Positions 33,363 to 53,551 of a stretch of 64,000 nt of DNA are shown one piece after another; positions within the stretch are counted from its first letter, which is position 1, and each line of letters opens with the position of its first letter. The notes beneath the pieces were generated by a model. The model was not told where the DNA came from. It made no database searches and saw only the letters and a program-made list of their open reading frames with translations. The stretch covers positions 1,616,001-1,680,000 of the forward strand of contig CP048486.1 in NCBI GenBank assembly GCA_025560025.1, in the 5' to 3' direction. The stretch comes from Agrobacterium tumefaciens. GTDB taxonomy: Bacteria > Pseudomonadota > Alphaproteobacteria > Rhizobiales > Rhizobiaceae. Made by a program: the position numbers and the translations under genes.

Positions 33363-33485
33363 GATGAATTGCCTTTTTGGAGATGTCCGTCAAGCTTGAT
33401 GTGGTGAAATTACGATAAATCTGGTCAAATTCTTCGTTTTTATGGTTCGTATTCAGGTTTGTAATTTTTTCTGATGAACGCCCTG

Positions 33486-33511
33486 TTGACAAAAATGAAA
33501 GCGTGTTCATT
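33486..33511 (+). promoter_or_regulatory. Promoter of the ABC importer with overlapping LacI-type operator
   Basis: TTGACA (33486-33491) is a perfect -35 box; the -10 box (near 33508-33514) is weak. The operator AATGAAAGCGTGTTCATT (33494-33511) fills the spacer, a position at which a repressor blocks polymerase directly. The rest of 33326-33611 is AT-rich with no gene. Confidence 0.6.
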
Positions 33512-33611
33512 CTTGGTGGCGGGATGAGGCGGGGACCGGAGGAGTTCTAGTTTGCCGGATCCTCGAAAAGCGCGCGCCGTCGCGCCGAACTATTTTTTGG
33601 GAGGACTTTCA

Positions 33612-34976: not shown

Positions 34977-34988
34977 GGCATAACGGAC

Positions 34989-35017
34989 TGCGTCTGACCG
35001 ATTACCGGTCAGACGCA
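34989..35017 (+). terminator. Intercistronic hairpin after the binding-protein gene
   Basis: TGCGTCTGACCG (34989-35000) and CGGTCAGACGCA (35006-35017) form a perfect 12-bp stem with a 5-base loop, followed by AATTT. In ABC operons such hairpins protect the 5' mRNA and/or partly terminate, so that the binding protein is made in excess over the permeases. Confidence 0.65.
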
Positions 35018-35059
35018 ATTTGCGACGGATCGATGCGATCCGCCATGAGGTAAAAAAGC

Positions 35060-36798: not shown

Positions 36799-36813
36799 TC
36801 GGAAATCAGTTTC

Positions 36814-37914: not shown

Positions 37915-37927
37915 GACGGGAAGTGTG

Positions 37928-39328
37928 ATGACCGAAATCAGGGTTCACGTCAGTCGCGCCGACCAGTCGGCCGATCCTTACTTCTATGTTCCTTTCGATG
38001 TTCTGAAGGGTGTAACGCGCATCGACGTGACGATGGCCTATCGGAAGGACGAGGATTGCGTCATCGATCTCGGCGTGCTCGACGCTACGGCGACGGACTA
38101 CCCTTCAGTCGCCGGTTTCCGTGGCTGGAGCGGTGGCGCACGCGATTGCTTCTTTGTTGCGACCGATGATGCAACGCCCGGCTATATCCACGGCGAGATG
38201 CCGGCCGGCACATGGAAAGTCATGCTCGGCCTGCATAAATTGCCGGAAAACGGAGCCGATGTCGTCGTGACTATCCGTTGCGACAGCGCGCCGCGCAAAC
38301 TCGAGCCGCAGCCGGAACGCCGCTTTCCGCGGCGGGAAGGGGCGGGCTGGTATCGGGGCGACCTGCATTGCCACACTTTCCATTCCGATGCATTGGGCTC
38401 TCCGGAGCTGCTGCATCAGGCTGCCTCCCAGGCCGGTCTCGATTTTCTTGCCATTGCCGATCACAACACCATCACGCAGCGCCGCTATTTTCATCCGCAA
38501 TCCTCGCCGGACCTTGTCTTCATCCGGGCGATGGAGATAACGACGGCGACTGGCCACGCCAATGTCTATGGTGTCGATGAGTGGATCGATTTCCGCATGA
38601 CCAAGCCGGAACATGCCCATACGCTCTCCCGGCTGGTGCATGAGCGCGGCGGGCTTTTGTCCATCAATCACGACAAGCCCACCATTCAATGGGACTACGA
38701 ACTGCCCGAGATCGACTGCATGGAGGTCTGGCAGTCACACTGGATGGCGTGGAACTGGGTGTCGCTCGGCCGCTATCAGCAGCGACTGGCTTCGGGTCTG
38801 AAGATCTCCGCCATCGGAGGCAGCGATTTTCATCAGCCTGCGCAACTCATGCCCGAGGGGCCGCTGGTGCTTGCCCGCCCGACGACGGTGTTCTGGCTGG
38901 AGGAGTTGTCGGAAGATGCTATCCTCGCTGCGATGAAGGCGGGTCGCGGTTATGTGACGGAAAGCCCGACGGGGCCGCATCTTGCGCTGACGGTGAACGG
39001 CCAGCCGATGGGTTCGACGGTTTCCGGACCGGTCATCGCAGAGGCCGATGTGAGGGGTGCGGATGGCGATCTGCTCGTCTGGATCGATGCAAGTGGCATT
39101 CTCACCACGCAGACCATTGAAACAGATGCTTGGACGGGCAGTTTCTCCGGCGAGGCAAAGACGTTTCTTCGTACCGAAATCATCGCTGCGAATAGCCGCG
39201 AAAGGCTGGTTGCCGATTTCATGGCGGCACAGGAGGGGCGCTCGCTTCCCTGGCAGCTTCAGGGCGCCCATATGCAGGATCAGCCGATCCGCCGGGCAGT
39301 GAGCAACCCGGTTTACATCCAGCCCTAG
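37928..39328 (+). CDS. PHP-family metallohydrolase (CehA/McbA type)
   Basis: 466 residues from ATG 37928. An N-terminal beta domain (about 1-130) precedes a PHP phosphoesterase domain with the metal motifs GDLHCHTFHSD, IADHNT, NHDKP and GGSDFHQ; a C-terminal beta domain (about 370-466) follows. The architecture resembles CehA/McbA-type proteins, whose members hydrolyse phosphodiesters or carbamate esters. No signal peptide, so cytoplasmic. As last gene of the importer operon it probably acts on the imported compound, perhaps a phosphorylated or esterified sugar; substrate unknown. Confidence 0.75.
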   Translation: MTEIRVHVSRADQSADPYFYVPFDVLKGVTRIDVTMAYRKDEDCVIDLGVLDATATDYPSVAGFRGWSGGARDCFFVATDDATPGYIHGEMPAGTWKVMLGLHKLPENGADVVVTIRCDSAPRKLEPQPERRFPRREGAGWYRGDLHCHTFHSDALGSPELLHQAASQAGLDFLAIADHNTITQRRYFHPQSSPDLVFIRAMEITTATGHANVYGVDEWIDFRMTKPEHAHTLSRLVHERGGLLSINHDKPTIQWDYELPEIDCMEVWQSHWMAWNWVSLGRYQQRLASGLKISAIGGSDFHQPAQLMPEGPLVLARPTTVFWLEELSEDAILAAMKAGRGYVTESPTGPHLALTVNGQPMGSTVSGPVIAEADVRGADGDLLVWIDASGILTTQTIETDAWTGSFSGEAKTFLRTEIIAANSRERLVADFMAAQEGRSLPWQLQGAHMQDQPIRRAVSNPVYIQP

Positions 39329-39663
39329 TTTCCCGGACAGATGACAGGTGGGGCGGGCGGACTTCTCCGCTCGCTCGTGCACTTGCGATATTACGGGCGC
39401 GGCAAAGCCCGCACGCCGTCGCGGCCGGTTCTGCCGCATCCTTGGTTAAAGACTATCAGGTGGTCCGGTCGTTTCTCCGCCATGGCACAGGTTTCGGCAA
39501 CGATGTTATGATGCGTCCGAGAGTGACGTGTATATACAAATGGATGCCGCTGAGGTCATTCGGCCTCCCAGCGCGATCTCCAGATTTCAGGGCAGTTCCG
39601 GCGCGCAGATCGCCTGATTTACCGATGTGAGCGTCAGTCGATAAAAGTGCTTCAAGCGGTATT
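39329..39663. other. Intergenic stretch without recognised gene
   Basis: Between the PHP gene and the next cluster. Every frame gives only short readings with no family resemblance; a 25-codon reading from ATG 39541 has no ribosome site. I see no tRNA, repeat or mobile-element end. The right edge leads into the operator pair of the next operon. Confidence 0.5.
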
Positions 39664-39701
39664 GCATTCGTATGCATTTATGCTACTTTGCATACGAATG
39701 C
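39664..39701. promoter_or_regulatory. Pair of LacI-type operators before the second ABC operon
   Basis: GCATTCGTATGC (39664-39675) and GCATACGAATGC (39690-39701) each differ at one base from the palindrome GCATACGTATGC. They are mirror images of one another, so the pair also forms a 13-bp inverted repeat (39664-39676 with 39689-39701). Centres are 26 bases apart. The same 12-mer, again with single changes, recurs at 45139 and 48407. The LacI regulator at 47329-48357 is the likely binder. Confidence 0.7.
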
Positions 39702-39748
39702 AAAAACTGACGCGACGTCGTTATGAGAAATTTGGGAGGAGCCAAATT

Positions 39749-41083
39749 ATGATTTCGAGGCGTAACTTCACGCAACTGGGTTTGGCGGCGTCGATGGCGG
39801 CCACCTTCGGTGTTTCGCCGCGCCGGGCCTCGGCTGCTCTTCTTGAGGGCAAGCCTTTCGCCGGCCAGGCTATCAATATCATGCTGCCGCAATCGAGCCA
39901 GTTTCGCGCCCATGAAAAGCGGCTTGCGCAATTTGAAGAACTGACGGGCATCAAGGCTGTTTATACCTATGTTCCCTATGGTCAGGTGCGCGACAAGATC
40001 ACGACCGAAGCGGTGGCGGGCAGCTCTGAATATGATGTCGTCTGTTATCAGGACAATTGGGGTCCGTCCCTGTCGATTTATCTGCACCCGCTCGACGAAT
40101 TGCTCAAGCGCGATGGGCTCGACATCAACCGTTACCCGCAAGCCTACAAGCTCGGCGGCCAGATCGGCGGCGTGACCTACGGTCTTCCGGTGCGCGGCCA
40201 TCCCCAGATGCTGTTTTATCGCAAGGACCTTTTCGATGCCGCGGGCCTCAAGCCGCCGACGACCTGGGACGAGGTTGCTGCTGCGGGTGCCGCCATACAG
40301 TCGGCCAATCCCGATGTGTCGGGCGTGGCGATGTATTACGGCAAGGGCAATGGCCAGCAGAACCTCTTCCTCTGGCTCAATCATTTGTGGGGCAAGGGCG
40401 GCGACATCTTTTCACCCGACTTCAAGGAAACCCGCTTCACCGATCCGGCTGCCATCGAAGCCACGCAGATGTATCTGGACCTTTTGCTGAAGCATAAGGT
40501 GGCTGCGCCCGGTTCCGTGCAGTTCGTCGAAGGGGACGCCGTCAATTCCGTGGCGCAGGGCAAGTCGGCCATGGTCATGGTCTGGTGGTGGGTCTATTCG
40601 GTTCTGACTGGCGAAAAATCCTCTCTGAAGCCGGAACAGGTCGGCTTTGCGCCCATGCCGCAGTTCGACAGCGGTGCCCCCGTATCCTATGCACTGTCTT
40701 TGCCCTTCGCGGTCAGCGCGCTTTCGAAAAAGAAGGATGCGGCATGGGAATTCATGAAATGGGTTTCGACGCCGGAACTCGAGATCGAATGTGCGATCGA
40801 CAAATCCGACCCCAAGACGTCCGATATCGTGGTCACCAACACGAAGAGCTTCCTCGACGAAAAGGTGAATGCGGCAAATCACGGCCTTCATAAGGTCGCT
40901 GCGAAGAGCCTTGAGGGTTCGCGGATCATGCCGCAGCTCAAGGAATGGCCGCAGATTGCCGTCACACTCGAAAACACCATCTCGGAACTTGCCACCGGTT
41001 CAAGGCCGGTAAAGGATGGGCTGGATCAGGCGGCTCAGGACATCGATCGTATCCTGCGGCGTGCAGGTTATCGCAAGGGCTGA
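39749..41083 (+). CDS. Tat-exported ABC substrate-binding protein
   Basis: 444 residues from ATG 39749 (RBS GGGAGGAG). The N terminus SRRNFTQLGLAASMAATFG is a twin-arginine signal, suggesting folding before export. Family 1 binding protein: INIMLPQSSQFRAHEKRLAQF, GLPVRGHPQMLFYRKDLFDAAG, then QGKSAMVMVWWWVY. Substrate unknown; the neighbouring enzymes point to a polyol, sugar acid or similar. First gene of the 39749-45098 operon, directly below the operator pair. The long in-frame upstream reading from 39647 crosses the operators and is rejected. Confidence 0.87.
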   Translation: MISRRNFTQLGLAASMAATFGVSPRRASAALLEGKPFAGQAINIMLPQSSQFRAHEKRLAQFEELTGIKAVYTYVPYGQVRDKITTEAVAGSSEYDVVCYQDNWGPSLSIYLHPLDELLKRDGLDINRYPQAYKLGGQIGGVTYGLPVRGHPQMLFYRKDLFDAAGLKPPTTWDEVAAAGAAIQSANPDVSGVAMYYGKGNGQQNLFLWLNHLWGKGGDIFSPDFKETRFTDPAAIEATQMYLDLLLKHKVAAPGSVQFVEGDAVNSVAQGKSAMVMVWWWVYSVLTGEKSSLKPEQVGFAPMPQFDSGAPVSYALSLPFAVSALSKKKDAAWEFMKWVSTPELEIECAIDKSDPKTSDIVVTNTKSFLDEKVNAANHGLHKVAAKSLEGSRIMPQLKEWPQIAVTLENTISELATGSRPVKDGLDQAAQDIDRILRRAGYRKG

Positions 41084-41172
41084 GTGAACCGCCTTCACCG
41101 TGAATGAAGGCATATGCCGGGTGGAGCAGGCGCTTCCCCTGGCAGGCCTTCCTTGTCGTCAAGGGATTTTCC

Positions 41173-42045
41173 GTGAAAGACAAACATCTGAAATACTGGC
41201 TGATTACACCAGCCTTCGTCGTCATCGCAGCGACGCTTCTCTACCCATTGGGCGCCGCTCTCTGGTACTCGGTGCATGAGTGGAACCTGGCGCAGCAGCC
41301 GACGCTCGGGCCTTTCGTCGGCATGGAGAACTATACCCGCGTCATCACGGACGATCCGGATTTCTGGCACAGCATCCGGGTGACGTCGGTCTTCACGGTC
41401 TTCTCCGTCTTCTTCACGATGATCCTCGCCATGGGGCTGGCTTTGCTTCTAGCCGGTGCCGATATGATGCGGGTAAGTGTGCGCACGCTGCTCGTGATAC
41501 CTTTCGCCATGTCGCCTGCATTGCTCGGCATATCCTGGCGCTTCCTGTTCAATCCGGAGTTCGGCGCATTTGCCGCCGTGGTCGGCGCCGTCGTTCCGTC
41601 GTTGAAAGGCGTTCCGATCCTTGCTGATCCGACACTTGCGATGGCAACGTTGATAGCTTCGGACGTCTGGCACTGGTCGCCTTATTTCATGCTCCTCTTC
41701 ATTGGCGCGCTTGCCGCTCTTCCGCAGGAAACGGTTGAGGCAGCCCAGGTCGATGGGGCTTCCAAGACGCGGGTGTTCTTTGAAATCGTGTTGCCGCAGC
41801 TGCGGCCGGTGCTTGCCATCGCCCTTCTGCTCAAGGCGATCTTCTCGCTCAAGGTCCTCGATCAGGTCGTCACGCTCACCAATGGCGGGCCGGGGACGGC
41901 GACGGAAACGCTGGCGCATTTCGTGTTCCAGACCGCCTTCCGCTGGTACGACCTCGGTTATGCGGCGGCAGTTGCCTATCTGCTCGCGGCTGTCATGGCG
42001 GTGCTTGCAGCAATTTATTCACGGTTCGTCATGGAGCGCCAGTGA
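41173..42045 (+). CDS. ABC importer permease, MalF type (second system)
   Basis: 290 residues from GTG 41173, preceded by AAGGGA; ATG 41104 is an in-frame alternative that adds 23 residues with no ribosome site. Six membrane segments; KHLKYWLITPAFVVIAATLLYP is the usual start of MalF-type subunits. EAA loop EAAQVDGASKTRVFFEIVLPQLRP, then TNGGPGTATETL. One base before the next gene. Confidence 0.85.
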   Translation: MKDKHLKYWLITPAFVVIAATLLYPLGAALWYSVHEWNLAQQPTLGPFVGMENYTRVITDDPDFWHSIRVTSVFTVFSVFFTMILAMGLALLLAGADMMRVSVRTLLVIPFAMSPALLGISWRFLFNPEFGAFAAVVGAVVPSLKGVPILADPTLAMATLIASDVWHWSPYFMLLFIGALAALPQETVEAAQVDGASKTRVFFEIVLPQLRPVLAIALLLKAIFSLKVLDQVVTLTNGGPGTATETLAHFVFQTAFRWYDLGYAAAVAYLLAAVMAVLAAIYSRFVMERQ

Positions 42046-42046
42046 C

Positions 42047-42874
42047 ATGCAGATGAAAACCAGAAACCGGATTTCAAGCCTCGCGCGCGGACTTGCCATC
42101 GCGCTCATTCTCCTCGTTTTCATCGGCCCGATCGTGTGGATCGTGGCGACGGCATTCAAGGACCCGCGTGACGTCTACGCGCTGAGGTTCTTCTTCACAC
42201 CCACGCTTGAAAACATCCGCACTGCGTTCGAAGCGCCGTTTCTCGTCGGCGAGCGCACCTGGAACAGCATCGTCGTGACGATGGGAACGCTGCTGCTGTC
42301 GTTGCCGATCGCCACTGCCGCGGCCTATGCCTTTTCGCGCTTCCGGTTCCCCGGTGGCAGCATCTGGCCAATCGGCGTGCTGGCGACCCAGTTCATCCCG
42401 CCCGTCATCGTCATCATCCCGCTCTTCATTGCCTTTCGCCAGGGTGGTCTGCTCGACACGCGCATCGCGCTCATCATCGCCAACATGTCTTTCGTGGTTC
42501 CCTATGCGATCTGGATGATCAAGGGGTTCATCGACTCCATACCGGTGGACATGGAGGAAGCAGCACAGATCGACGGCGCCTCACGTCTGAGGGCAATCTG
42601 GGATGTCGTCGTGCCGATGGCGCTTCCGGGCATCGCCACCGCCGGCATCTTCTGTTTCGTCGTCGCATGGAACGAGTTCTTTTATGCGCTGGTGCTGACG
42701 CGGGAAAACGCAACGACCATCCAGGTAGCGCTGATGAGCGCCAGGACGGAACGCGGCGACGCGTGGGAAATCATGGCCGCCATCGGTCTCGTGATCATCC
42801 TGCCGATGCTTGTTCTGTCCCGATACGTCCAGAAATATTTCGTCAAAGGCCTTGTTTCGGGCTCGGTAAGATAG
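42047..42874 (+). CDS. ABC importer permease, MalG type (second system)
   Basis: 275 residues, six membrane segments. Start ATG 42047, one base after the previous stop; a longer in-frame reading from 41702 lies within the preceding gene and is a shadow. EAA loop EEAAQIDGASRLRAIWDVVVP. Pairs with the preceding permease. Followed 10 bases later by the NTF2-like gene, which interrupts the importer genes. Confidence 0.88.
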   Translation: MQMKTRNRISSLARGLAIALILLVFIGPIVWIVATAFKDPRDVYALRFFFTPTLENIRTAFEAPFLVGERTWNSIVVTMGTLLLSLPIATAAAYAFSRFRFPGGSIWPIGVLATQFIPPVIVIIPLFIAFRQGGLLDTRIALIIANMSFVVPYAIWMIKGFIDSIPVDMEEAAQIDGASRLRAIWDVVVPMALPGIATAGIFCFVVAWNEFFYALVLTRENATTIQVALMSARTERGDAWEIMAAIGLVIILPMLVLSRYVQKYFVKGLVSGSVR

Positions 42875-42884
42875 GGAGAAGACA

Positions 42885-43985
42885 ATGAACGATGTATCAA
42901 CCGCAAAGCGTGACTTGCGCGCAGGCGTGACAACGGTGCGGCAGCGCTCCGTGGAGGAACTGCTTGCACCCAAGGAACGCAATGGCTTTCCCCTGTCGGG
43001 CTTCGACGATGCATTCGGCGATATCGTCGACTATATCTTCAAGATAACGCACTGGATCTGGGCTGAAAAATCGGTCGGCAAGATCTACGATTATTACGAT
43101 CATGCCTGCATGGTTTATACCGCCTTCGATATTACCCGCTCCGTCGAGGAGGTCGTCAACGGCACCGTTTCGATGATGCAGGCCTTTCCCGACCGGGAGA
43201 GCCGTTTCCTCAACGTGGCCTGGAGCGGCGATGACAAGGAGGGCTATTACACAAGCCATCTCGGCTTCAGCCAGATGACCAATATCGGTCCGAGCGCTTA
43301 TGGCGAAGCGACCGGGCGGCGGGTGAACATCCATACCGTGGCCGACTGTGTCTCCAGGGATAACAAGATTTTCCGTGAATGGCTGGTGCGGGACAACGGC
43401 GCGATGGTGCGCCAGCTGGGTTTTGACATTCATGAGGTTGCGCGCAGCCTCGCGGATCGGGATGCCGCTGCCGGCCGTGAACCCTGGTTCATCGGCCAGC
43501 CCGAGCGCTCCGCAGGCCAGGCGCTGCCTTTGCCCCTCGACCGGCCGAAGAAGACGATCGAAGACAGGCTTGCCCATATGCTGCACGAGGCATGGAACCG
43601 CCGGCGGTTCGACGCGCTTCGGGAAGTTTACGATCCTGCCGTCAATGTCCATATGGCCGGCGGCCGCGAAATTACCGGTATCGAAGGCCTCGTCTATCAT
43701 TTCATCCAGATTGTCGCGGCTTTCCCGAACGCGGTGTTTTCCTTCGATAATTATTGCCACGCGGACGAAGCGGACGGCACGATTGCGGCGGTACGCTGGT
43801 CCATCCGCGGACATCATCGCGGTAACGGTCTGTTCGGCGCGCCAAGCGGCAAACCGGTCTATATTCTCGGCATGTCGCATTTCCGCTTCAACGACGACAA
43901 GATCATCGAAGAGTGGACCCTGTATGACGAACTTGCCATCCTCCGGCAGATATATGCCCACGGGCCGGTTCGGCAGGAGGATTGA
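42885..43985 (+). CDS. Tandem NTF2/SnoaL-like protein inside an ABC operon
   Basis: 366 residues with two NTF2/SnoaL-like cone domains in tandem (about 35-190 and 225-355). Both copies end alike: DNKIFREWLVRDNGAMVRQLG in the first, DDKIIEEWTLYDELAILRQI in the second, indicating duplication. SnoaL-like folds act as isomerases, cyclases, dehydratases or ligand-binding proteins. RBS GGGAGAAG before ATG 42885; it ends 3 bases before the ATPase gene, so it is made with the importer. No signal peptide. I do not recognise a characterised relative. Confidence 0.7.
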   Translation: MNDVSTAKRDLRAGVTTVRQRSVEELLAPKERNGFPLSGFDDAFGDIVDYIFKITHWIWAEKSVGKIYDYYDHACMVYTAFDITRSVEEVVNGTVSMMQAFPDRESRFLNVAWSGDDKEGYYTSHLGFSQMTNIGPSAYGEATGRRVNIHTVADCVSRDNKIFREWLVRDNGAMVRQLGFDIHEVARSLADRDAAAGREPWFIGQPERSAGQALPLPLDRPKKTIEDRLAHMLHEAWNRRRFDALREVYDPAVNVHMAGGREITGIEGLVYHFIQIVAAFPNAVFSFDNYCHADEADGTIAAVRWSIRGHHRGNGLFGAPSGKPVYILGMSHFRFNDDKIIEEWTLYDELAILRQIYAHGPVRQED

Positions 43986-43988
43986 GAC

Positions 43989-45098
43989 GTGGCGTCAGTA
44001 AACCTCACCGATATCGAAAAACGTTTCGGGTCCTTCGTTGCCCTGCCCAAGCTCAATTTGTCCATCGCCGACGGCGAGTTTCTGGTGCTGCTGGGACCAT
44101 CTGGCTGCGGCAAGACGACGACGATGCGTATCGTGGCCGGACTGGAAGAGGCGAGCGCGGGCGAATTGCGGATCGGAGACAAGGTCGTCAACAACATGTT
44201 GCCCAAGGACCGCGACGTGGCGATGGTCTTTCAGAACTACGGTCTCTATCCGCATATGACGGTGGCAGGCAACATCACCTATCCGCTTAAGGTGCGTGGC
44301 GTTCCCAAGGCGGAGCGGGAACGTCAGGTTCAGGCCGCAGCCGAGAAAGTCGAGCTTGGGCCGCTTCTCGGGCGCAAGCCCCGCGAACTGTCGGGCGGCC
44401 AGCGTCAGCGCGTTGCGCTGGCACGCGCCATCGTGCGCACGCCCAAAGTGTTCCTGATGGACGAACCGCTCTCCAATCTAGATGCGAAACTGCGGGTCAC
44501 CATGCGCGCGGAAATCAAGCATCTGCAGCATCAGCTCGGTGTGACAACCATCTACGTTACGCACGATCAGATCGAGGCAATGACATTGGCTGATCGGGTT
44601 GCCGTCATGAACAAGGGCGTCATTCAGCAACTTGCGCCACCGGAGGAAATATACGACCGGCCCGCAAACCTGTTCGTCGCCGGTTTTATCGGCTCGCCCC
44701 CGATGAATCTCATTTCCGGCGAGACTACCGATGGCGTCTTCTGTTCGGACGCCCTTTCGCTGGGCCGGCAGAAGCTGCCTGGAAAGGGCAAAATGGTTCT
44801 CGGTATCCGCCCCGAAGACATGTCGGTCGCCGAGGGCACGACGGGCGATTTCACCGGCAGCATCTATGCCATCGAGCTCACCGGCGAATCCAACTACATC
44901 ACCGTCCAGCTGGGCAAGGATCGGATCATCGTAAGAGCGCCGCGGTCATGGCGCGGAAAACCGGGGGATACGGTTGCGATCGACTTGAACGCATCCCGTC
45001 TGCATCTCTTTGACGCTGCCACGGGAGAACGCATTGACTTGCCCTCCATGGAGCACTCGCTTGGGGCAAATATCAGCCGTCCGCAATTGCAGGGGTAA
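43989..45098 (+). CDS. ABC importer ATPase, UgpC/MsmK type (second system)
   Basis: 369 residues from GTG 43989 with AGGAGG 8 bases upstream. Walker A GPSGCGKTT, MVFQNYGLYPHM, signature LSGGQRQRVALARAI, Walker B FLMDEPLSNLDAKLR, switch VTHDQIEAM, C-terminal TOBE domain (GIRPEDMSV). Last gene of the importer operon. After it, AGTAGC and GCTACT (45168-45182 region) form a short hairpin. Confidence 0.88.
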   Translation: MASVNLTDIEKRFGSFVALPKLNLSIADGEFLVLLGPSGCGKTTTMRIVAGLEEASAGELRIGDKVVNNMLPKDRDVAMVFQNYGLYPHMTVAGNITYPLKVRGVPKAERERQVQAAAEKVELGPLLGRKPRELSGGQRQRVALARAIVRTPKVFLMDEPLSNLDAKLRVTMRAEIKHLQHQLGVTTIYVTHDQIEAMTLADRVAVMNKGVIQQLAPPEEIYDRPANLFVAGFIGSPPMNLISGETTDGVFCSDALSLGRQKLPGKGKMVLGIRPEDMSVAEGTTGDFTGSIYAIELTGESNYITVQLGKDRIIVRAPRSWRGKPGDTVAIDLNASRLHLFDAATGERIDLPSMEHSLGANISRPQLQG

Positions 45099-45138
45099 CG
45101 ACCTTTTCAAATTGCTCTGGATGATAGCAGAGCCTATT

Positions 45139-45150
45139 GAATACGTATGC
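45139..45150. promoter_or_regulatory. LacI-type operator before the dehydrogenase operon
   Basis: GAATACGTATGC differs at one base from the palindrome GCATACGTATGC shared with 39664, 39690 and 48407. A possible -35 box TTGAAT (45137-45142) overlaps it; no good -10 is visible. It suggests that the dehydrogenase-SDR-lacI unit starts its own transcript under the same regulator. Confidence 0.6.
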
Positions 45151-45254
45151 ATTTGCCGGTAACTACTAGTAGCAGTGCTACTGGAAGGGAAGGCGATTGA
45201 AGTTTCCGAGCGGCATTGCGTTTTCGCATGCTGAAACGCCAAGGGAAGAAACAC

Positions 45255-46565
45255 ATGACAGTCACCTATCTCAAGCGCGGAAAGCCAGAGGCGCAACGGT
45301 CTGAAGACGATGCGAAGGTTCGTACGATCGTGGAGTCGACGCTGAAGGACATCGAGACGCATGGCGACGCTGCCGTGCGCGCGCTCTCGGAGAAATTCGA
45401 CAAATTTTCACCGCCATCCTTCAAGCTCAGCCCGTCCGAGATTGAGGCCGCGATGTCCAGGGTCTCGGCGCGCGATATGGCCGATATCGATTTTGCCCAG
45501 GCGCAGATCCGCCGGTTCGCACAGGCCCAACGCGCCTCGATGACCGATATCGAGGTGGAAACGCTGCCTGGTGTGATCCTTGGTCACCGCAACATTCCGG
45601 TTCAGTCGGTTGGCTGCTATGTGCCCGGCGGCAAGTTTCCGATGGTCGCCTCTGCCCATATGTCGGTGCTGACGGCGTCCGTAGCCGGCGTTCCGCGCAT
45701 CGTCGCATCCGCTCCGCCGCAAAAGGGCGAGCCGCATCCTGCGATCGTTGCGGCTATGCACAAGGCCGGCGCCCACGAGATTTACGTGCTGGGCGGCATG
45801 CAGGCCGTTGGCGCAATGGCTCTGGGCACGGAGACGATCAAGCCTGTCGATATGCTGGTCGGTCCCGGCAACGCCTTCGTAGCCGAGGCCAAACGCCAGC
45901 TTTATGGCCGCGTCGGCATCGATCTCTTTGCGGGTCCAACCGAGACGATGGTGATTGCCGATGAGACGGTGGATGCCGAGATGTGCGCCACCGACCTGAT
46001 CGGTCAGGCGGAACATGGCTATAATTCGCCATCCGTCCTCTTGACCAATTCCGAGAGGCTGGCAAGGCAGACGCTGGCCGAAGTCGAGCGCCTGCTGGCG
46101 ATCATTCCGACCACGGAAACAGCAAGCGCCTCCTGGCGCGATTATGGCGAGGTCATCGTCTGCGACACCTATGAGGAGATGCTGGCAGTTGCCAACGATA
46201 TCGCCTCCGAACACGTTCAGGTGATGACCGACCGTGACGATTGGTTCCTGGAGAACATGCACTCCTACGGCGCGTTGTTCCTCGGCCCGCGAACCAATGT
46301 TGCCAATGGCGACAAGGTGATCGGCACCAACCATACGCTGCCGACCAGGAAGGCCGGCCGGTATACCGGCGGTCTCTGGGTCGGCAAGTTTCTGAAGACG
46401 CACTCCTACCAGAGGGTGTTGACTGACGAGGCCGCGGCCGAAGTCGGTGCCTATTGCTCGCGTCTCTGCCTGCTGGAAGGCTTCGTCGGCCATGCCGAGC
46501 AGGCCAATGTCCGGGTTCGCCGTTACGGTGGCCGCAATATTCCTTACGGAGAGGCGGCCGCCTGA
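45255..46565 (+). CDS. Histidinol-dehydrogenase-family alcohol dehydrogenase (HpsN type)
   Basis: 436 residues from ATG 45255 (RBS AAGGGAAG). The fold is that of HisD, a zinc enzyme that oxidises a primary alcohol to an acid in two NAD steps. All catalytic positions are kept: Gln251/His254 (GQAEHG), Glu319/His320 (SEHVQ), Asp353 ([10 protein letters not shown]) and His413 (EGFVGHAEQ). The C-terminal [13 protein letters not shown] and the catabolic context point to the group annotated as sulfopropanediol 3-dehydrogenase (HpsN) and not to histidine biosynthesis. No transporter or lyase for sulfonates is nearby, so the substrate is open. Confidence 0.8.
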
Positions 46566-47329
46566 TGAATATCCCCCGCACGCCCTCCTTCCGCCTTGCC
46601 GGCAAACGCGCTCTCGTCGCCGGTGCATCGTCCGGCATCGGCTTCGGCTGCGCGGTCGCGTTGGCGGAGGCGGGCGCGCATGTGGTGCTTGCCGCCAGAT
46701 CGGCGGAAAAACTCGATGAGGCGGTGGAGGCTATCCGGTCCGAAGGTTTCTCGGCTGAAGCAATGGTGCTGGATATTGCCGATGTCGAGGCGACGCAGGC
46801 TCAGGTTGATGACCAAGGACCGTTCCAGGTGCTCGTCAACAGCGCGGGTAGCGCCCGGCATGGGCCGGCGCTTGAAACGACCCCTGTTGACTTCGATGCC
46901 GTCTTCTCTTTGAACGTGCGCGGTGCCTATTTCCTGACCCGCGCGGTGGCCAGAGGGCTGATTGACGCCGGCCAGCCGGGTTCCCTGATCAATATTTCGT
47001 CTCAGATGGCCCATGTCGGCGGCATCGACCGGGCGGTTTACAGCGCCACGAAACATGCCGTCGAGGGGTTTACGAAGTCGATGGCGATCGAATGGGGCTC
47101 GAAAGGTATCCGGGTCAATACGATCTGCCCGACTTTCATCGAGACGCCGCTGACCGAGCAAACCTTTTCTCAACCGGAACGGGTTCAGTGGATAAAGGAG
47201 AAAATCAAGCTTGGCCGCATCGGTCGTGTTGAAGACATTATGGCCGCGGTCACCTATCTTGCCGGCGACGCGGCGGCGATGGTGACAGGAACCGCGCTGA
47301 TGGTCGATGGGGGTTGGACGGCAGACTGA
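46565..47329 (+). CDS. Short-chain dehydrogenase/reductase
   Basis: 254 residues, classical SDR. Cofactor motif GASSGIG (about 20-26), structural VNSAGSA, catalytic Ser in NISSQMAHVGG and Tyr-x3-Lys in VYSATKHAVEG; the C-terminal end MVTGTALMVDGGWTAD is typical. Presumably oxidises a secondary alcohol with NAD(P). The start overlaps the dehydrogenase stop by one base (TGATG) and its stop overlaps the lacI-type start in the same way, so three proteins are translationally coupled. Confidence 0.88.
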   Translation: MNIPRTPSFRLAGKRALVAGASSGIGFGCAVALAEAGAHVVLAARSAEKLDEAVEAIRSEGFSAEAMVLDIADVEATQAQVDDQGPFQVLVNSAGSARHGPALETTPVDFDAVFSLNVRGAYFLTRAVARGLIDAGQPGSLINISSQMAHVGGIDRAVYSATKHAVEGFTKSMAIEWGSKGIRVNTICPTFIETPLTEQTFSQPERVQWIKEKIKLGRIGRVEDIMAAVTYLAGDAAAMVTGTALMVDGGWTAD

Positions 47330-48357
47330 TGGCAAACGATAAGATCACTTCGAACGATGTTGCGCGCCTGGCGGGCGTAAGCCAATCGGCAGTCTCGCGG
47401 TACTTCACGCCGGGAACCTCGGTTTCCAAGAAGACATCCGAGAAGATCAGGGATGCAGCCGAACAGCTCGGTTACCGGCCGAACGTTCTCGCCCGCTCGC
47501 TGATTACCGGGCGCAGCCGCATCATCGGTCTCGTCGTCGCCTATCTGGAAAACTACTTCTACCCGGAGGTTGTCGAGCGGCTGTCGAAAGCGCTTCAGGA
47601 TCAGGGCTACCATGTTCTGGTCTTCATCTCCTCGATCGCCTCCGAAAACGTCGACCAGATCACCCAGGAAATTCTGGACTATCAGGTGGATGGCATCGTT
47701 CTGGCATCGGCGAACATGTCGTCCGAACTTGCGGCGCGCTGCCATGCCTCTGGCGTGCCGATCGTACTGTTCAACCGGTCGCAGGATGATATGCGGCTCT
47801 CGGCCGTCACTTCGGACAACCGCGCCGGCGGGCGCCAACTGGCCGATCTGTTCGTGTCGCTTGGTCACACGCGTTGCGGCTATATCGCTGGCTTTGAAGG
47901 CGCCTCGACGCAGCGTGACCGCGAACAGGGTTTTCGGGAAGGGCTGGAAGCGGCGGGGCTCACGCTCTTTGCCCGTGAAGTCGGCAATTTCCGTTATGAA
48001 GAGGCGCAGGCGGCGGCGCGGCGGATGTTCGCCGGGCCGGATCGCCCCGATGCCGTCTTCGTCTGCAACGACCACATGGCATTTGCCGTCATGGACGTGC
48101 TGCGCTTTGAATTGAAGTTGAGCATTCCCGGCGACGTTTCGGTCGTCGGCTTCGACGATGTGCCGCCGGCGCGCTGGCCGGCATACAATCTCACGACCAT
48201 CCGCCAGAATGTCGACGACATGGTCGGCGAGACGGTTGCGACGCTGATGCAGAGCATCAAGCAGGGCGATGGCGCCGCGCGCCGTGTCGTCCTTGATGGT
48301 GCCCTGGTCCTGCGTGGCTCGACCCTCCAAACAGCTCCTACAGAAGTGAGACGCTAA
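47329..48357 (+). CDS. LacI-family regulator of the second catabolic locus
   Basis: 342 residues. Helix-turn-helix DVARLAGVSQSAVSRYFTPGTSV, hinge PNVLARSLITGRS, periplasmic-binding-like effector domain with FICNDHMAFAVMD-type loop (here FVCNDHMAFAVMDVLRFE). Encoded at the end of the dehydrogenase-SDR unit. The four single-mismatch copies of GCATACGTATGC at 39664, 39690, 45139 and 48407 probably bind it. A 7-bp hairpin (CCATCCC/GGGATGG, 48364-48381) follows the stop without a U-run. Confidence 0.87.
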   Translation: MANDKITSNDVARLAGVSQSAVSRYFTPGTSVSKKTSEKIRDAAEQLGYRPNVLARSLITGRSRIIGLVVAYLENYFYPEVVERLSKALQDQGYHVLVFISSIASENVDQITQEILDYQVDGIVLASANMSSELAARCHASGVPIVLFNRSQDDMRLSAVTSDNRAGGRQLADLFVSLGHTRCGYIAGFEGASTQRDREQGFREGLEAAGLTLFAREVGNFRYEEAQAAARRMFAGPDRPDAVFVCNDHMAFAVMDVLRFELKLSIPGDVSVVGFDDVPPARWPAYNLTTIRQNVDDMVGETVATLMQSIKQGDGAARRVVLDGALVLRGSTLQTAPTEVRR

Positions 48358-48406
48358 GCCTCCCCATCCCAGAAGGGATGGAGAAGCACTGACCGCAACC
48401 CATTTT

Positions 48407-48418
48407 GCATACGTATGA
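48407..48418. promoter_or_regulatory. LacI-type operator at the cupin gene start
   Basis: GCATACGTATGA, one base from the palindrome GCATACGTATGC. It ends only 10 bases before the cupin ATG and borders its ribosome site (AAAGG). Either the bound repressor acts as a roadblock to transcripts coming from the lacI-type gene, or the promoter lies close by; no good hexamers are visible. Confidence 0.6.
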
Positions 48419-48428
48419 AAGGCTGAAA

Positions 48429-49400
48429 ATGCAGATCTCCCAGGAAGAAATGGAAAGACGGATCGTTCGTTATGGCGAGTTGAAGCCATGCCGCACTGCC
48501 TTCATCGACGCCCATACGCCGGGCTCGAACAGCAAGGAGAACTTCACGATCATCGGTGGTGGCGTCTCGGAAAGTGCTGATCAGCACGTTCACATCAAGG
48601 ACACGCCCGGCTTCAATATCGGGGCCGCAGGCCAGCCGCCCAAATGCCGCAACTCGCTGCATTCGCACCGCACGGCAGAGGTGTTCTTCGTCCTCAAGGG
48701 GCGTTGGCGCTTCTTTTGGGGCCGCTGGGGCAATGCCGGTGAAGTGGTGCTTGAGGAAGGAGATATCTTCAATATCCCGACCGGCATCTTCCGCGGTTTC
48801 GAAAATATCGGAACCGACTATGGGATGATCATGGCGATCCTCGGCGGCGACGATGCCGGCGGCGGCGTGATCTGGGCGCCGCAGGTGATCGAGGATGCCA
48901 GGGACCACGGGCTGGTTCTTGGGGAAAACGGTAAGCTCTATGACAGCAAAAAGGGCCACACGCTGCCCGATGGTATCAAGCCGATGCCGCTGCTGACGGA
49001 CGAGGAACTGAAGGGCTTCCCCGAAACGCCAGTCACCGACGTGGTGCGTGACTATGTCGCCCGTTACTGGGACCTGATGGCGCTTGCCCAGAAGGCTCCG
49101 GCCAAGGTGATCGGTGAAAATGCATTGCTGCGGGACAAGCCGGGCTTTGAGGTCGAGCTTCTGACGCGCGGGTCCATTCCGGAAGCCGCCTATGTCAACG
49201 AGCGCCATGAGGTGCTGATGGTCATGCGCGGCCATTGGAAGCTTGACTGGGACGGTGGCACCGCCGTGCTGGCGCCGGGCGATACCTGCGCCGTTCCCCC
49301 GGGCCTGAAACACAGCCTCGTGCCTTCGATGACCGGCGAGGCCAGTCTTTATCGCGTCGTTGCCACTGGCGAAAAGGCAGGCCTTACCTGGCGCGGCTGA
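48429..49400 (+). CDS. Two-domain cupin protein
   Basis: 323 residues, bicupin of the gentisate-dioxygenase type by layout. The N-terminal cupin has the full first motif HSHRTAEVFFVLKG (His78, His80, Glu84), but its second motif GDIFNIPTGIFRGFEN has Arg122 where the third metal His is expected. The C-terminal cupin lacks HxH but keeps the second-motif His295 (PPGLKHS). Metal binding is thus uncertain. Could be a dioxygenase, isomerase or hydrolase; not assigned. Start ATG 48429; 101 bases before the RraA-like gene. Confidence 0.75.
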   Translation: MQISQEEMERRIVRYGELKPCRTAFIDAHTPGSNSKENFTIIGGGVSESADQHVHIKDTPGFNIGAAGQPPKCRNSLHSHRTAEVFFVLKGRWRFFWGRWGNAGEVVLEEGDIFNIPTGIFRGFENIGTDYGMIMAILGGDDAGGGVIWAPQVIEDARDHGLVLGENGKLYDSKKGHTLPDGIKPMPLLTDEELKGFPETPVTDVVRDYVARYWDLMALAQKAPAKVIGENALLRDKPGFEVELLTRGSIPEAAYVNERHEVLMVMRGHWKLDWDGGTAVLAPGDTCAVPPGLKHSLVPSMTGEASLYRVVATGEKAGLTWRG

Positions 49401-49501
49401 AATCGGATGCAACGCGGCGGCATACCTGCCGCCGCGGTTCCAGACAAAAGCAGGTATCGGACGAGACGTCTGATTTAACCTGACGCATCGGAGGATGACA
49501 C

Positions 49502-50197
49502 TTGGACGACACTCTCCTGGCCCTGCTGCGCAAGGTCGATACACCAACCGTCTGCAATGCGATCGAGGTGGCGCAGGGCAAACGCGGGTTCAATGCATTC
49601 ACCCGAGGTACGGTGATCTCTTCGGCCCCCGCGGCTGCACCCGCCGTCGGTTATGCCCGCACGGCGAAGATCGCTGCGGCTGTTCCTTCAAGCGAAGATC
49701 CCGCCACTATCAAGGCCCGGCGTCGGGACTATTACCGGCACATGGCAGGTGGCGATGCGCCGTCCATAGCCGTCGTCGAGGACCTGGACTTTCCCCATTG
49801 CGTCGGCGCCTTCTGGGGCGAGATCAATGCAACGGTACACCGGGGACTGGGTCTATCCGGGGTGCTGACCAATGGCGTCATGCGTGACCTCGGCGATGTT
49901 CCTGACGATTTTCCGATGATTGCCGGTTCGGTCGGGCCAAGTCATGCTTTCGTCCGTGTCGAGGCAATCGGCACGCCCGTCACGGTCTTCGGAATGACAG
50001 TTGCGCCGGGCGATCTCGTCCATACGGATCGTCATGGAGCCGTCGTCATCCCGCCCGACATCATCCCCGTCCTCGCTGCTGCGATTGATAAGCTGCAGGC
50101 GACGGAGCGGCTTATTCTGGAACCCGCTCGGCGGAAAGATTTCGATCTTGCGAAATTCGAAGAGGCCTGGGCCTCATTCGAGGCCGCGCGCACTTGA
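49502..50197 (+). CDS. RraA/HMG-aldolase-family protein
   Basis: 231 residues from TTG 49502, with GGAGG about 8 bases upstream; no in-frame ATG exists nearby. RraA-like fold: VDTPTVCNAIEV at the N terminus, the GVLTNGVMRDLGDV segment with the Arg-Asp pair used by the divalent-metal pyruvate aldolases, and PGDLVHTDRHGAVVIP. In catabolic loci such proteins are 4-hydroxy-2-oxo-acid aldolases or oxaloacetate decarboxylases, so it may carry out the C-C cleavage of this pathway (inference). Overlaps the next gene by four bases. Confidence 0.8.
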   Translation: MDDTLLALLRKVDTPTVCNAIEVAQGKRGFNAFTRGTVISSAPAAAPAVGYARTAKIAAAVPSSEDPATIKARRRDYYRHMAGGDAPSIAVVEDLDFPHCVGAFWGEINATVHRGLGLSGVLTNGVMRDLGDVPDDFPMIAGSVGPSHAFVRVEAIGTPVTVFGMTVAPGDLVHTDRHGAVVIPPDIIPVLAAAIDKLQATERLILEPARRKDFDLAKFEEAWASFEAART

Positions 50198-50949
50198 CCG
50201 GACAAAACGGCGGGGGACTTGCGTTGGAGAAAGGTCCAAAACACGCAGCAGATGGGCGGCCTCCGCTCCTCCTTCTTCCCGGAACCGCCTGCGACCGGCG
50301 CATCTTCCAGCCCCTGATCGATCGGTTAGGAGATTATCCCGTTATTGTGGGCGACACGACGGGTAGCCGGACAATGCCGGATCTTGCCCGAAGCGTGCTT
50401 GCGGCCGCGCCACCCGTGTTCCTGCTCGCTGGATTTTCGCTCGGAGGCATCTGCGCGCTCGAGATGGTCGCGCAGATGCCTCATCGCGTGGCAAAACTGG
50501 CCCTGATCGATTCCACTGCGCGACCAGACCCGCCCGCAAACGCGGAAATTCGGCGTCGGGCAGTCGAGCGCGCGAGAACAATGGGCATGGACACGTTCAT
50601 CCTCGATGGGTGGGAACGGCTCGTCGCTCCGGTTAACATCGGCAATGTCGGCCTGCGTGAAGAAATTGTGGCGATGGCGCGCGACTGTGGGCCGGACAAT
50701 CTTGAAACGCAGGCGGAAGCCGCCATTCACCGGGCAGACAGCAGGCCGCGGCTGGCTGCAATCGGCACACCAACGCTGGTGCTGGCCGGCGAGCATGAGC
50801 AGATATGCCCGATCGAGGCGCAGTATGAAATAGCGAACGGTATTGCGGGCGCAAATCTGCAATTGATCGCCAATGCCGGTCATTTCGCTCCGCTTGAAAA
50901 TGCCGAGGCGGTGGCGTTGCATATCGATCGCTGGCTGAAAGGCGCATAG
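50194..50949 (+). CDS. Alpha/beta hydrolase, enol-lactonase-like
   Basis: 251 residues if begun at TTG 50194, which overlaps the RraA-like stop. TTG 50224 with GGGGGA upstream is an equally good start. Alpha/beta fold: LLLLPGTACDRRIFQPL, nucleophile Ser in AGFSLGGICALEM, His in IANAGHFAPLEN. Resembles 3-oxoadipate enol-lactonase/RutD-like enzymes, so a lactone or ester may be the substrate. Cytoplasmic. Last gene of the locus. Confidence 0.8.
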   Translation: MTGQNGGGLALEKGPKHAADGRPPLLLLPGTACDRRIFQPLIDRLGDYPVIVGDTTGSRTMPDLARSVLAAAPPVFLLAGFSLGGICALEMVAQMPHRVAKLALIDSTARPDPPANAEIRRRAVERARTMGMDTFILDGWERLVAPVNIGNVGLREEIVAMARDCGPDNLETQAEAAIHRADSRPRLAAIGTPTLVLAGEHEQICPIEAQYEIANGIAGANLQLIANAGHFAPLENAEAVALHIDRWLKGA

Positions 50950-51309: not shown

Positions 51310-51607
51310 TTGGCCCATGTCGACACTTCATGCATTTTGCGATGCCGCAATTGTCGTCGGTTACGTCTCCCAGGTAACACTTCATTTAGTGCTTTTGTGA
51401 AATCTAAAATACGCAGGTTCCAAGGTTTCATCGGCGGAGCCGGTAGAGCAAGTGGACCCATCTCGGAAAGCCCTGCGGCGACCCGTACTGGACATCCGCT
51501 TGTCGCCCTATGAGGAGGGGCACAGCTACCCGCAATGTTTCTTTATATGTTTCTTTGGCTTCCCGCACCGGCCGGGCAGCTGGAGAGCGCTTGCCCCGAG
51601 GCCATTC

Positions 51608-53551
51608 ATGTCTTTCCTGAAGAATACCAAAATTAAAACGAAGGTCGTTTTCGTCATTTCGCTAATGAGCTTGATGTCGATCTCAGGCATCAGCTACGTC
51701 AGCTTGCAATATAAAAAAACCGACGATGTCTACAGCGATTTCATTGCCAATGAGGCACTTGCCGCGGTGCTGAACGCCCGAACCAGCGGAAATCTCAATG
51801 CGCTCGGCATGCAGATGCTGCGCGCGTCTCTCAATGACCCTGCCAGCAGCGATTTCGAATCCGCAGTCAAGACCTTCAAAGCCGATCGCAAGCAGCTGGA
51901 AGAGCGGCAGAACAAGATCATCGAGCTGGTTCCAGCCCGCACGGAAGCCGCTCGCGATATCCTCAAGGGTGTTGTCGAAGTCGAGGAAATGGGTAACCAG
52001 GTCATTGCCCTGATGCAGGCAGGACAACGTGCGGAAGCACAGCAGATGGCGCTCAATCTGCTTCGGAAAATGACCGAGGTTTCGCCGAAGATCAGCGCGG
52101 GCAACGAGCAGCTGATCCAGGTGATGAACGATGGCAGAGAACGCCTCACGGCCAGCACCAACACGACGATCTGGACGGCTCTGGTCAGCATAGCGCTTGT
52201 GTCGCTGGCATTGATCGCCCTCGGCCTGTTCATCTCTTCCCGTGGCATAACAACCCCGATCGCACGGCTTCGCGAGCGAATGGGATCGCTGGCGGCAGGT
52301 GACACCGCCACGGAAATTGCCGGTATGGACCGCAAGGATGAAGTGGGCCAGATGGCCGCCGCGGTTCAGGCGTTTCGTGAGAACGCCATCGAGCGCGTTC
52401 GGCTTGAGAATGAGACGGAGGCCAACCGCTCATCTTCGGAGAAGGACCGGATCGAACGCGAAAAACAAAAGGCGAATGAGGCTGCCGACGTGCAGTTTGC
52501 CGTCGACAACCTTGCGACTGCCCTTTCGAAAATCTCCCAGGGTGACGTTACCTACAGGATCGTTCAACCCTTCGTATCCAGCCTTGATGGCATTCGCGGT
52601 GACTTCAACAGGGCGGCGGAGCAGCTGCAATCGACGCTGAGCCAGGTGGCGCAGAATGCGCGCGGCATTGATGCGGGTGCGAATGAGATCCGCTCGGCTG
52701 CCGACGATCTGGCAAAGCGTACCGAGCAGCAGGCTGCGGCTGTCGAGGAGACAGCGGCTGCCCTGGAAGAGATCACCACGACGGTGAAGGACTCGACGAA
52801 ACGGGCGCAGGAAGCGGGTCATCTTGTCGGTCGCGCGAAAATTGGTGCCGAACAGTCGGGAGAAGTGGTCCAGAAAGCTGTCGCCGCGATGGAGCAGATT
52901 GCAGGATCAGCGAACGAGATTTCCAACATCATCGGCGTGATCGATGAGATCGCCTTCCAGACGAACCTTCTGGCGTTGAATGCGGGCGTGGAAGCAGCCC
53001 GTGCCGGCGAGGCGGGCAAGGGGTTTGCCGTCGTCGCTCAGGAAGTTCGTGAGCTGGCACAGCGTTCCGCCGGTGCCGCCAAGGAGATCAAGAACCTCAT
53101 CACGACATCGAACAGCCAGGTTCAGCAGGGTGTGCAACTGGTCGGCCAGACCGGCAAGGCGCTCGAGTTGATCGTCACGGAAGTGCAGGAAATCAACCGG
53201 CACGTGGCGGCGATCGCAGAATCGGCGCAGGAGCAGTCCTCCGGTCTTCAGCAGATCAATACCGCCGTGAACCAGATGGATCAGGACACGCAGAAAAACG
53301 CTGCCATGGTGGAGGAAAGCACGGCGGCGAGCCACGGGCTGGCCCGCGAGGCAGCGTCGCTTAACCAGCTTCTCGCCCAGTTCAAATTGTCGGAAGGCGG
53401 TTACAGCGCGGCGTCTGCGCCGGTTCGTGCAGCCTCGCCCGTCGACAGGCCTGCGGCTTCACCCGCTCGCGCGCTTGGCGGAAAGATCAGGGCTGCATTC
53501 TCGGGCAATGCCGCACTGAGCACATCCGCTGATAACTGGGAGGAATTTTGA
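51608..53551 (+). CDS. Methyl-accepting chemotaxis protein
   Basis: 647 residues from ATG 51608 (GAGG upstream; the longer reading from 51452 has no membrane logic). TM1 about 11-33, a helical periplasmic ligand domain of the four-helix-bundle type (34-187), TM2 about 188-211, HAMP (212-265), and a cytoplasmic signalling hairpin whose tip EIAFQTNLLALNAGVEAARA is near residue 446. The C terminus DNWEEF is the CheR/CheB tether pentapeptide (NWETF in enteric receptors), so it is a high-abundance type receptor. Ligand unknown; the neighbouring catabolic loci are tempting. Confidence 0.92.
   Translation: MSFLKNTKIKTKVVFVISLMSLMSISGISYVSLQYKKTDDVYSDFIANEALAAVLNARTSGNLNALGMQMLRASLNDPASSDFESAVKTFKADRKQLEERQNKIIELVPARTEAARDILKGVVEVEEMGNQVIALMQAGQRAEAQQMALNLLRKMTEVSPKISAGNEQLIQVMNDGRERLTASTNTTIWTALVSIALVSLALIALGLFISSRGITTPIARLRERMGSLAAGDTATEIAGMDRKDEVGQMAAAVQAFRENAIERVRLENETEANRSSSEKDRIEREKQKANEAADVQFAVDNLATALSKISQGDVTYRIVQPFVSSLDGIRGDFNRAAEQLQSTLSQVAQNARGIDAGANEIRSAADDLAKRTEQQAAAVEETAAALEEITTTVKDSTKRAQEAGHLVGRAKIGAEQSGEVVQKAVAAMEQIAGSANEISNIIGVIDEIAFQTNLLALNAGVEAARAGEAGKGFAVVAQEVRELAQRSAGAAKEIKNLITTSNSQVQQGVQLVGQTGKALELIVTEVQEINRHVAAIAESAQEQSSGLQQINTAVNQMDQDTQKNAAMVEESTAASHGLAREAASLNQLLAQFKLSEGGYSAASAPVRAASPVDRPAASPARALGGKIRAAFSGNAALSTSADNWEEF

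Follow-up and report, generated by a model that had tools for sequence, protein, structure and literature searches.

Eleven intact genes lie on the plus strand between positions 39749 and 50949 of the DNA studied here, a stretch of 64,000 nucleotides from Agrobacterium tumefaciens (positions 1616001-1680000 of contig C2, CP048486.1, in a four-contig, 5.68-Mb genome, G000), which we call the window. According to open reading frame (ORF) calls and Pfam and NCBIfam profile searches, these genes cover about 11 kb and encode, in this order, a solute-binding protein (SBP), two permeases, a tandem SnoaL/NTF2-fold protein (SnoA), a UgpC-type ATPase, a HisD-fold dehydrogenase, a short-chain dehydrogenase (SDR), a LacI regulator, a bicupin, an RraA-like protein and an alpha/beta hydrolase (Table 1). 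All genes named in a preliminary description of the window are thus present, intact and read in one direction. The SBP_bac_1 protein, the two permeases and the UgpC/MalK-type ATPase with its OB/TOBE domains constitute an ATP-binding cassette (ABC) importer of the CUT1 sugar type, and the SBP begins with a putative twin-arginine-like (Tat) signal, read by eye (MISRRNFTQLG, with SRRNFTQLG as the matching part). Starts were revised to 39749 for the SBP (instead of 39664 or 39647), 45255 for the HisD-like protein, 46565 for the SDR and 48429 for the bicupin.

Table 1. Genes and predicted operators of the locus (positions in the window)
Feature	Position	Strand	Evidence
LacI operator O1a, TTGCATTCGTATGCAT	39662..39677	.	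1 mismatch to TTGCATNCGNATGCAA; like sites upstream of homologous SBP genes in L009, L010, L011, L016, L096
LacI operator O1b, TTGCATACGAATGCAA	39688..39703	.	0 mismatches; sole exact site in the 5.68-Mb genome
CUT1-type sugar solute-binding protein	39749..41083	+	PF01547 (SBP_bac_1) E 1.5e-46; closest solved chains mostly sugar binders
ABC permease 1	41104..42045	+	PF00528 (BPD_transp_1) E 9e-11
ABC permease 2	42047..42874	+	PF00528 E 1.4e-18; start is an ATG within a longer ORF, 41702-42874
SnoA, tandem SnoaL/NTF2-fold protein, 366 aa, proposed entry enzyme	42885..43985	+	SnoaL E 2.7e-29
UgpC/MalK-type ABC ATPase	43989..45098	+	ABC_tran with TOBE_2/OB_MalK; NCBIfam UgpC NF008653 463.9 bits, cut-off 432
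Weaker LacI operator O2, TTGAATACGTATGCAT, before the HisD-like gene	45137..45152	.	2 mismatches; one of 18 sites of such quality genome-wide, weak alone
HisD-fold NAD dehydrogenase, G-[KR]-[FY]-P-[ML] class	45255..46565	+	PF00815 (Histidinol_dh) E 3.8e-135; nearest solved HpsN 8v35; motif GKFPM
SDR, KduD/2-deoxygluconate 3-dehydrogenase-like	46565..47329	+	adh_short_C2 E 7e-58; best solved 4hp8, 180.7 bits
LacI-family regulator	47329..48357	+	PF00356 (LacI) and PF13377 (Peripla_BP_3); start set by MANDK... of relatives
LacI operator O3, TTGCATACGTATGAAA, directly before the bicupin gene	48405..48420	.	1 mismatch; same site in L009, L016, L096
Bicupin	48429..49400	+	Cupin_2, two stretches; metal-type residues H78, H80, E84 in the N-terminal cupin only
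RraA-like protein, proposed pyruvate-forming aldolase	49502..50197	+	PF03737 E 2e-14; E-x20-R-D; alignment with the CHA aldolase 3noj
Alpha/beta hydrolase, remotely similar to PcaD; putative lactonase or C-C hydrolase	50194..50949	+	PF00561 (Abhydrolase_1) E 8e-14; PcaDC model 103 bits (cut-off 390)

A predicted operator and a recurring gene set

A palindrome with a central CG, TTGCATNCGNATGCAA, emerged from a search for inverted repeats 5' of the SBP genes in the window and in five relatives; it is the predicted operator of the LacI protein. O1a and O1b both lie 5' of the corrected SBP start. Sites with at most one mismatch number three in the whole genome, all of them within the locus; up to two mismatches are found at 21 sites, compared with 2 for a reversed control pattern, and the nine sites with up to three mismatches in the window were equalled by 1 of 100 shuffles. 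The exact operator occurs in 19 of 297 genomes of the host's order (reversed control, 0/297). A gene of the same dehydrogenase family (HisD class) accompanied by an SDR or bicupin gene shares the stretch with the exact site in 11 of these 19, one being the genome of the window and the others represented by L138, L139, L140, L144, L146, L147, L148, L149, L153 and L154; these neighbourhoods were drawn from 20 stretches of 18 other exact-site genomes, leaving out one site of G068 (contig C113). The exact operator stands directly 5' of the HisD-class gene in L146, L147, L148 and L154, and the same or a near motif recurs at many distant loci, such as TTTTGAATACGTATTCAAAA (two mismatches) in Peribacillus. 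The regulator combines a LacI helix-turn-helix with a periplasmic-binding-like domain, and the conserved palindrome at the promoters supports, at the level of sequence, the earlier view of a LacI-gated locus. LacI would occupy O1, O2 and O3 until the substrate or an intermediate releases it.

The gene set is also found elsewhere. A scan of a genome collection with the SnoA alignment yielded 297 relatives; the comparison covered the best 80 of them, many on contigs that end early. SnoA is present at all 80 loci by construction; tblastn with family seeds placed a second SnoaL gene at 40, the bicupin at 37, the HisD class at 26, the hydrolase at 26, a MetE-like protein at 19, an HpcH/HpaI aldolase at 18 and RraA at 11. 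The HisD seed, from S. medicae, came from a split gene read in part; the resulting count (26/80) agrees with clustering. HisD, bicupin, an aldolase and the hydrolase stand together at 16 of the 80 loci, a count that includes the near-copy L015 and excludes any locus with a member missing, early-ending contigs among them; the HisD protein is more distant (44%) in four of the 16 (L037, L056, L057, L076). L015 belongs to Agrobacterium genomosp. 13 CFBP 6927 and has an identical SnoA (100%), its other genes being 96-100% identical (SDR not counted). The same gene order is seen in L009 and L010, where an additional SnoaL gene separates SDR from LacI; L009 has a MetE-like gene besides. L011 keeps the order up to the end of its contig, and Shinella granuli (L016) keeps it in part. 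In distant bacteria the enzyme set is reshuffled and joined to other importers. It occurs in rhizobia, Ruegeria, sphingomonads, plasmids of Enterobacterales, Peribacillus, Deinococcus and a metagenome-assembled genome (MAG) of Saprospiraceae, and partially in Chloroflexota; annotated plasmid records with the set come from S. medicae (L096, HisD split), Ruegeria (L092), Klebsiella (L089), Pantoea (L097), Deinococcus (L095) and Novosphingobium (L101). The Klebsiella core consists of LacI followed by HisD, SDR, a major facilitator superfamily (MFS) transporter, hydrolase, HpcH and cupin, and in Vibrio (L090) cupin, HpcH and hydrolase adjoin otnK and otnI. Given that the order recurs in L009, L010, L011 and L016 and the enzyme set in distant bacteria, the locus is, as judged by sequence comparison, more than a chance neighbourhood. 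The preliminary description had taken the genes for one catabolic system and named a lack of conservation among the neighbours as grounds for refuting it; the neighbours are conserved and, together with the common operator, support the one-system view.

Close to the host, the locus is rare. Of 61 relatives, 3 match SnoA strongly (E < 1e-50), a number that rises to 8 at E 1e-3; 3 match the bicupin (E 1e-30) and 6 the HisD class (E 1e-120). In one of these six, G045, the sole such protein has the HpsN motif described below. Within the genus, 1 of 37 genomes, that of the window itself, contains a strong match to SnoA, bicupin or HisD class. The G+C content of the locus (0.59-0.62) falls inside the range of the window (0.56-0.65). 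Such a sporadic occurrence is consistent with gain by transfer.

A candidate route from terminal diol to pyruvate

We propose, with moderate confidence, that the locus is a single catabolic unit under LacI control and acts on a small, sugar-like polyhydroxylated compound, whose terminal diol would be converted to a hydroxy acid, a keto acid and finally pyruvate. Read from gene content, operator sequence, conservation, aldolase exchange and key residues, the chemistry would run as follows. The ABC importer would take up the compound, and the HisD-fold enzyme would oxidize a terminal R-CH(OH)-CH2OH to R-CH(OH)-COOH using two NAD+ and a metal centre, as HpsN does with 2,3-dihydroxypropanesulfonate (DHPS). 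The hydrolase would open the lactone formed by such acids, or a beta-dicarbonyl, the SDR would turn a secondary alcohol into a ketone, and the bicupin would isomerize the compound or open a ring. RraA would then cleave the resulting 4-hydroxy-2-oxo acid into pyruvate and an aldehyde or oxo acid. SnoA would serve as an optional entry enzyme, feeding larger or substituted substrates into this core.

The RraA-like protein had been described as an aldol-cleaving or decarboxylating enzyme, and we narrow this to a probable aldolase because RraA and HpcH/HpaI never co-occur at core loci. Core loci, defined by a bicupin or HisD, number 42: RraA occurs at 11 of them, HpcH/HpaI at 14 and the two together at 0, and neither is in view at 17; the zero overlap has P 0.005 under independence, a value that ignores shared ancestry. 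This pattern suggests that the two are interchangeable pyruvate-forming aldolases with the same role. Similar to LigK, the RraA-like 4-carboxy-4-hydroxy-2-oxoadipate (CHA) aldolase, the window protein keeps R-D in the active-site stretch when aligned to 3noj, but Glu replaces Asp 20 residues before, the match to 3noj amounts to no more than 22.7 bits, and the LigK model gives 31.5 bits with a cut-off of 304.5. E-x20-R-D in the window protein would correspond to D-x20-R-D, which we take to be the metal and catalytic motif of RraA-like pyruvate aldolases (LigK; 4-hydroxy-4-methyl-2-oxoglutarate/CHA aldolases). An unlikely but serious rival makes the RraA-like protein a decarboxylase of the oxaloacetate type, or a non-catalytic protein, with the carbon skeleton cleaved elsewhere. 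By their family names RraA-like aldolases also decarboxylate, all NCBIfam matches of the window protein remain below cut-off, and both aldolases are missing from view at the 17 loci mentioned; the mutual exclusion with HpcH/HpaI at the same loci argues against it.

The SDR has its closest relatives among dehydrogenases of sugar acids and sugars, with 2-deoxy-D-gluconate 3-dehydrogenase as its best solved relative and KduD as its best NCBIfam match (203 bits; TIGR01832 cut-off, 338.85). This relationship invites a reading that we find rather unlikely, namely 2-keto-3-deoxy sugar-acid chemistry acting on a uronate- or inositol-derived acid, with the SDR as KduD, the bicupin as a KduI/IolB-like isomerase and RraA as an aldolase of the 2-keto-3-deoxygluconate (KDG) type. 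The logic of cupin, SDR and pyruvate aldolase is indeed that of the KduI/KduD and GarL/KDG aldolase pathways, and KduI/IolB and IolN-like proteins stand beside SnoaL in Natroniella (L028). However, all sugar-acid family scores are below the curated cut-offs and the KduI Pfam model has no bicupin match at E 0.001; a KduI-type fold was not seen for the bicupin among the best 50 matches listed, an absence that is not probative. The HisD-fold step of the locus also counts against this reading, as such a step is not known to belong to 2-keto-3-deoxy sugar-acid pathways.

Ring cleavage is a distinctly improbable alternative: the bicupin would act as a dioxygenase on an enol- or phenol-like ring, the hydrolase would be MhpC/PcaD-like, and RraA would be a LigK-type aldolase for a branched hydroxy-oxo acid. 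Because its fold is closest to dioxygenases, the bicupin could be an O2-dependent ring-opener and not an isomerase. Over 25 aligned rows H78, H80 and E84 are invariant, and the fourth position is an equally invariant Arg122; the protein does not have the 3-His/1-Glu metal site that we presume for bicupin dioxygenases such as quercetinase and gentisate dioxygenase.

Among solved chains, HpsN (389.5 bits) and an R-DHPS dehydrogenase (374) come closest to the dehydrogenase, compared with 267 for the best HisD, and the catalytic Glu-His and the metal-binding Asp are in place (SEHVQV and NGDK aligned to HpsN E318/H319 and D352/K353). The earlier label of an HpsN-type enzyme therefore stands as far as relationship goes, but not for substrate binding. 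HpsN is characterized by G-R-Y-[AS]-H, whose terminal His126 binds the sulfonate (PMC11382572), whereas the window protein reads G-K-F-P-M, with Met in place of His. All 27 of 27 locus relatives, L015 included, have G-[KR]-[FY]-P-[ML], that is, Met or Leu at the His position, and among further rows that reach the motif (the L096 fragment ends short of it and is not counted) the HpsN version is confined to L109-L111, at 47-49% identity. Since the histidine that defines HpsN is absent, sulfonate is, on sequence, an unlikely substrate. The locus shares with the hpsNOP DHPS pathway the fold, the metal and catalytic residues, an SDR partner and, as would be expected, a four-electron oxidation of a terminal diol; it differs in its sugar-type importer and in having an aldolase, a bicupin and a hydrolase instead. 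That it is nevertheless a DHPS or sulfolactate operon, with the HisD-like protein as HpsN and the SDR as HpsO, is hardly credible: its closeness to HpsN, the SDR nature of HpsO (PMC11131964; gene cluster in PMC11382572) and some activity of L-histidinol dehydrogenase on DHPS at far lower affinity (PMC11131964), by which the motif is no absolute bar, are set against the GKFPM-type motif throughout, the existence of the HpsN motif in three other genomes' proteins within the order, and an operon in which no sulfo-lyase was seen (SuyB and CuyA were not searched for). The best Xsc match in the genome reached 283 bits, below the cut-off of 676, and the control stayed below cut-off in all 14 genomes.

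Histidinol dehydrogenase (HisD) belongs to the same Pfam family, and the window enzyme passes the TIGR00069 cut-off (433 bits, cut-off 243.8). In contrast to HisD, it has no his genes in its operon and reads GKFPM where HisD has GSAPL (PMC11382572); another HisD, on contig C1, scores higher (569.8 compared with 451.5 bits). A second HisD-fold protein (43-50% identity, GRYPLLSAPIM-like motif) occurs at L138, L146-L149, L097, L101 and L095, mostly at loci with SnoaL genes and several times with an amidase nearby, and is possibly a separate module. In S. medicae ml29 (L096:8710-10010) the HisD-like gene is read as two overlapping pieces without an annotated coding sequence, and this copy therefore looks broken or mis-sequenced; among the matches listed from other S. 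medicae records, CP140904 is partial at 72% and two more cover 97%. For a P. phymatum relative (L093), a table in a paper on NifA-controlled nodule functions gives -6.13 for hisD Bphy_7422 and -5.68 for the SDR Bphy_7421 (PMC8305402); taken to be log2 fold changes in a nifA mutant, these values offer an expression hint for the relative.

SnoaL is not annotated in the Klebsiella operon and, being dispensable in some relatives, is probably an entry enzyme outside the core. SnoA resembles the SnoaL/AknH polyketide cyclases by fold only; unlike them, it joins two such units in tandem and is encoded in a catabolic operon. In Saprospiraceae, a protein of 685 aa (L081:8641-10698) has four SnoaL stretches, a double tandem fusion. 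A small cassette of LacI, two SnoaLs, an MFS transporter and a sodium symporter, without any neighbouring dehydrogenase family, occurs in clostridia, two C. difficile strains among them (L035, L042, L045, L053, L069-L071 and L083; L033 without LacI in view), and these SnoaL pairs may act alone on some substrate. In a Chloroflexota MAG (L052:5272-6791) a corrinoid protein and a pterin-binding methyltransferase directly adjoin the SnoaL genes, a possible link to demethylation. A family of 226-249 aa lies beside SnoaL genes at 6 of the 80 loci; the two members scanned (L019:12108-12788 and L024:12118-12867) had no Pfam match.

Weighing the proposal and its possible substrates

Besides the neglect of shared ancestry in the P value for the aldolases and the dioxygenase-like fold of the bicupin, several observations weigh against the diol-to-pyruvate scheme. 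Neither aldolase is in view at many core loci, as stated, and 12 of these 17 contain a MetE-like protein, which the scheme does not explain. In Shinella granuli the operon lacks HisD and SDR but is otherwise the same. The GKFPM class also stands beside thiamine pyrophosphate enzymes and GMC oxidoreductases (L094, L099, L100, L158), and the wider HisD class keeps other company at L091, L093, L094, L098-L100, L102 and L158, so that the association is not universal. Eight of the 19 exact-site genomes of the order have no HisD class at the site, where other LacI cassettes, fragments or nothing recognized were found. The recognition helix of the regulator is presumably VSQSAVSR, and SQSAVSR and the operator are also common to LacIs of other cassettes (L141, L145, L150, L152). 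This weakens the operator as a pathway-specific mark, and for the same reason we assign it, by sequence, to a LacI subclass and not to this pathway alone.

Modules at relatives suggest which groups the entry enzymes may have to remove: a corrinoid protein occurs with a pterin-binding methyltransferase (L052) or with a URO-D-like protein (L031, L064), and the 80 loci include amidases (5), ornithine-cyclodeaminase-like proteins (4, one at 27%) and AstA-like proteins (4). From these gene kinds and general chemistry we derive a bolder and very doubtful reading, in which tandem SnoaL proteins would be a new class of catabolic C-C/C-X lyases and the system would degrade an abundant, polyhydroxylated, methylated, N-substituted natural product, for example sunscreens of the mycosporine/gadusol type. 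Such a compound would offer C(OH)-CH2OH to the HisD-fold enzyme, an enol to the bicupin, a branched 4-hydroxy-2-oxo acid to RraA, a methyl group to the MetE-like protein (19/80 loci) or the corrinoid modules, and N-linked groups to the amidases, ornithine-cyclodeaminase-like and AstA-like proteins of relatives. This reading sits badly with the clostridia, whose cassettes consist of SnoaLs, transporters and LacI alone. The MetE-like protein had no match in the window's genome in a search that lacked a positive control, and the available parts of a mycosporine review (PMC3083659) contain no bacterial degradation genes.

Flanking genes and implications

A second ABC operon lies just upstream (32285-39328; operon at 33.5-39.3 kb) and encodes an SBP, two permeases, a UgpC-like ATPase and a CehA/McbA-type metallohydrolase (NF038032, 271 bits); a LacI-type gene of its own is read from the opposite strand. 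We considered it as part of the same system and judged it separate because it contains 0 operator sites with up to two mismatches. The operon is followed by a methyl-accepting chemotaxis protein (51452-53551), which could sense the same compound.

In searches for the gene set or for substrate classes, we found no description of the set among the literature matches listed, mostly from non-subscription journals; this agrees with the preliminary description, which could match it to no pathway. The main text of a LacI regulon survey, as available, is without histidinol, SnoaL or cupin (PMC4052901), and the accessible parts of two further papers mention SnoaL only incidentally (PMC10766802; PMC9732360). 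The parts are of known kinds, but in the literature covered neither their combination nor the GKFPM dehydrogenase class nor the regulon seems to have been described.

The GKFPM motif sets these dehydrogenases apart from histidinol and DHPS dehydrogenases. In annotated plasmid records such enzymes go by the name hisD, and surveys based on bit scores could count them as DHPS enzymes. The operator provides a handle for finding the gene set in other genomes. Given that this set is widespread across distant bacteria, its distribution points to a common nutrient as the substrate.

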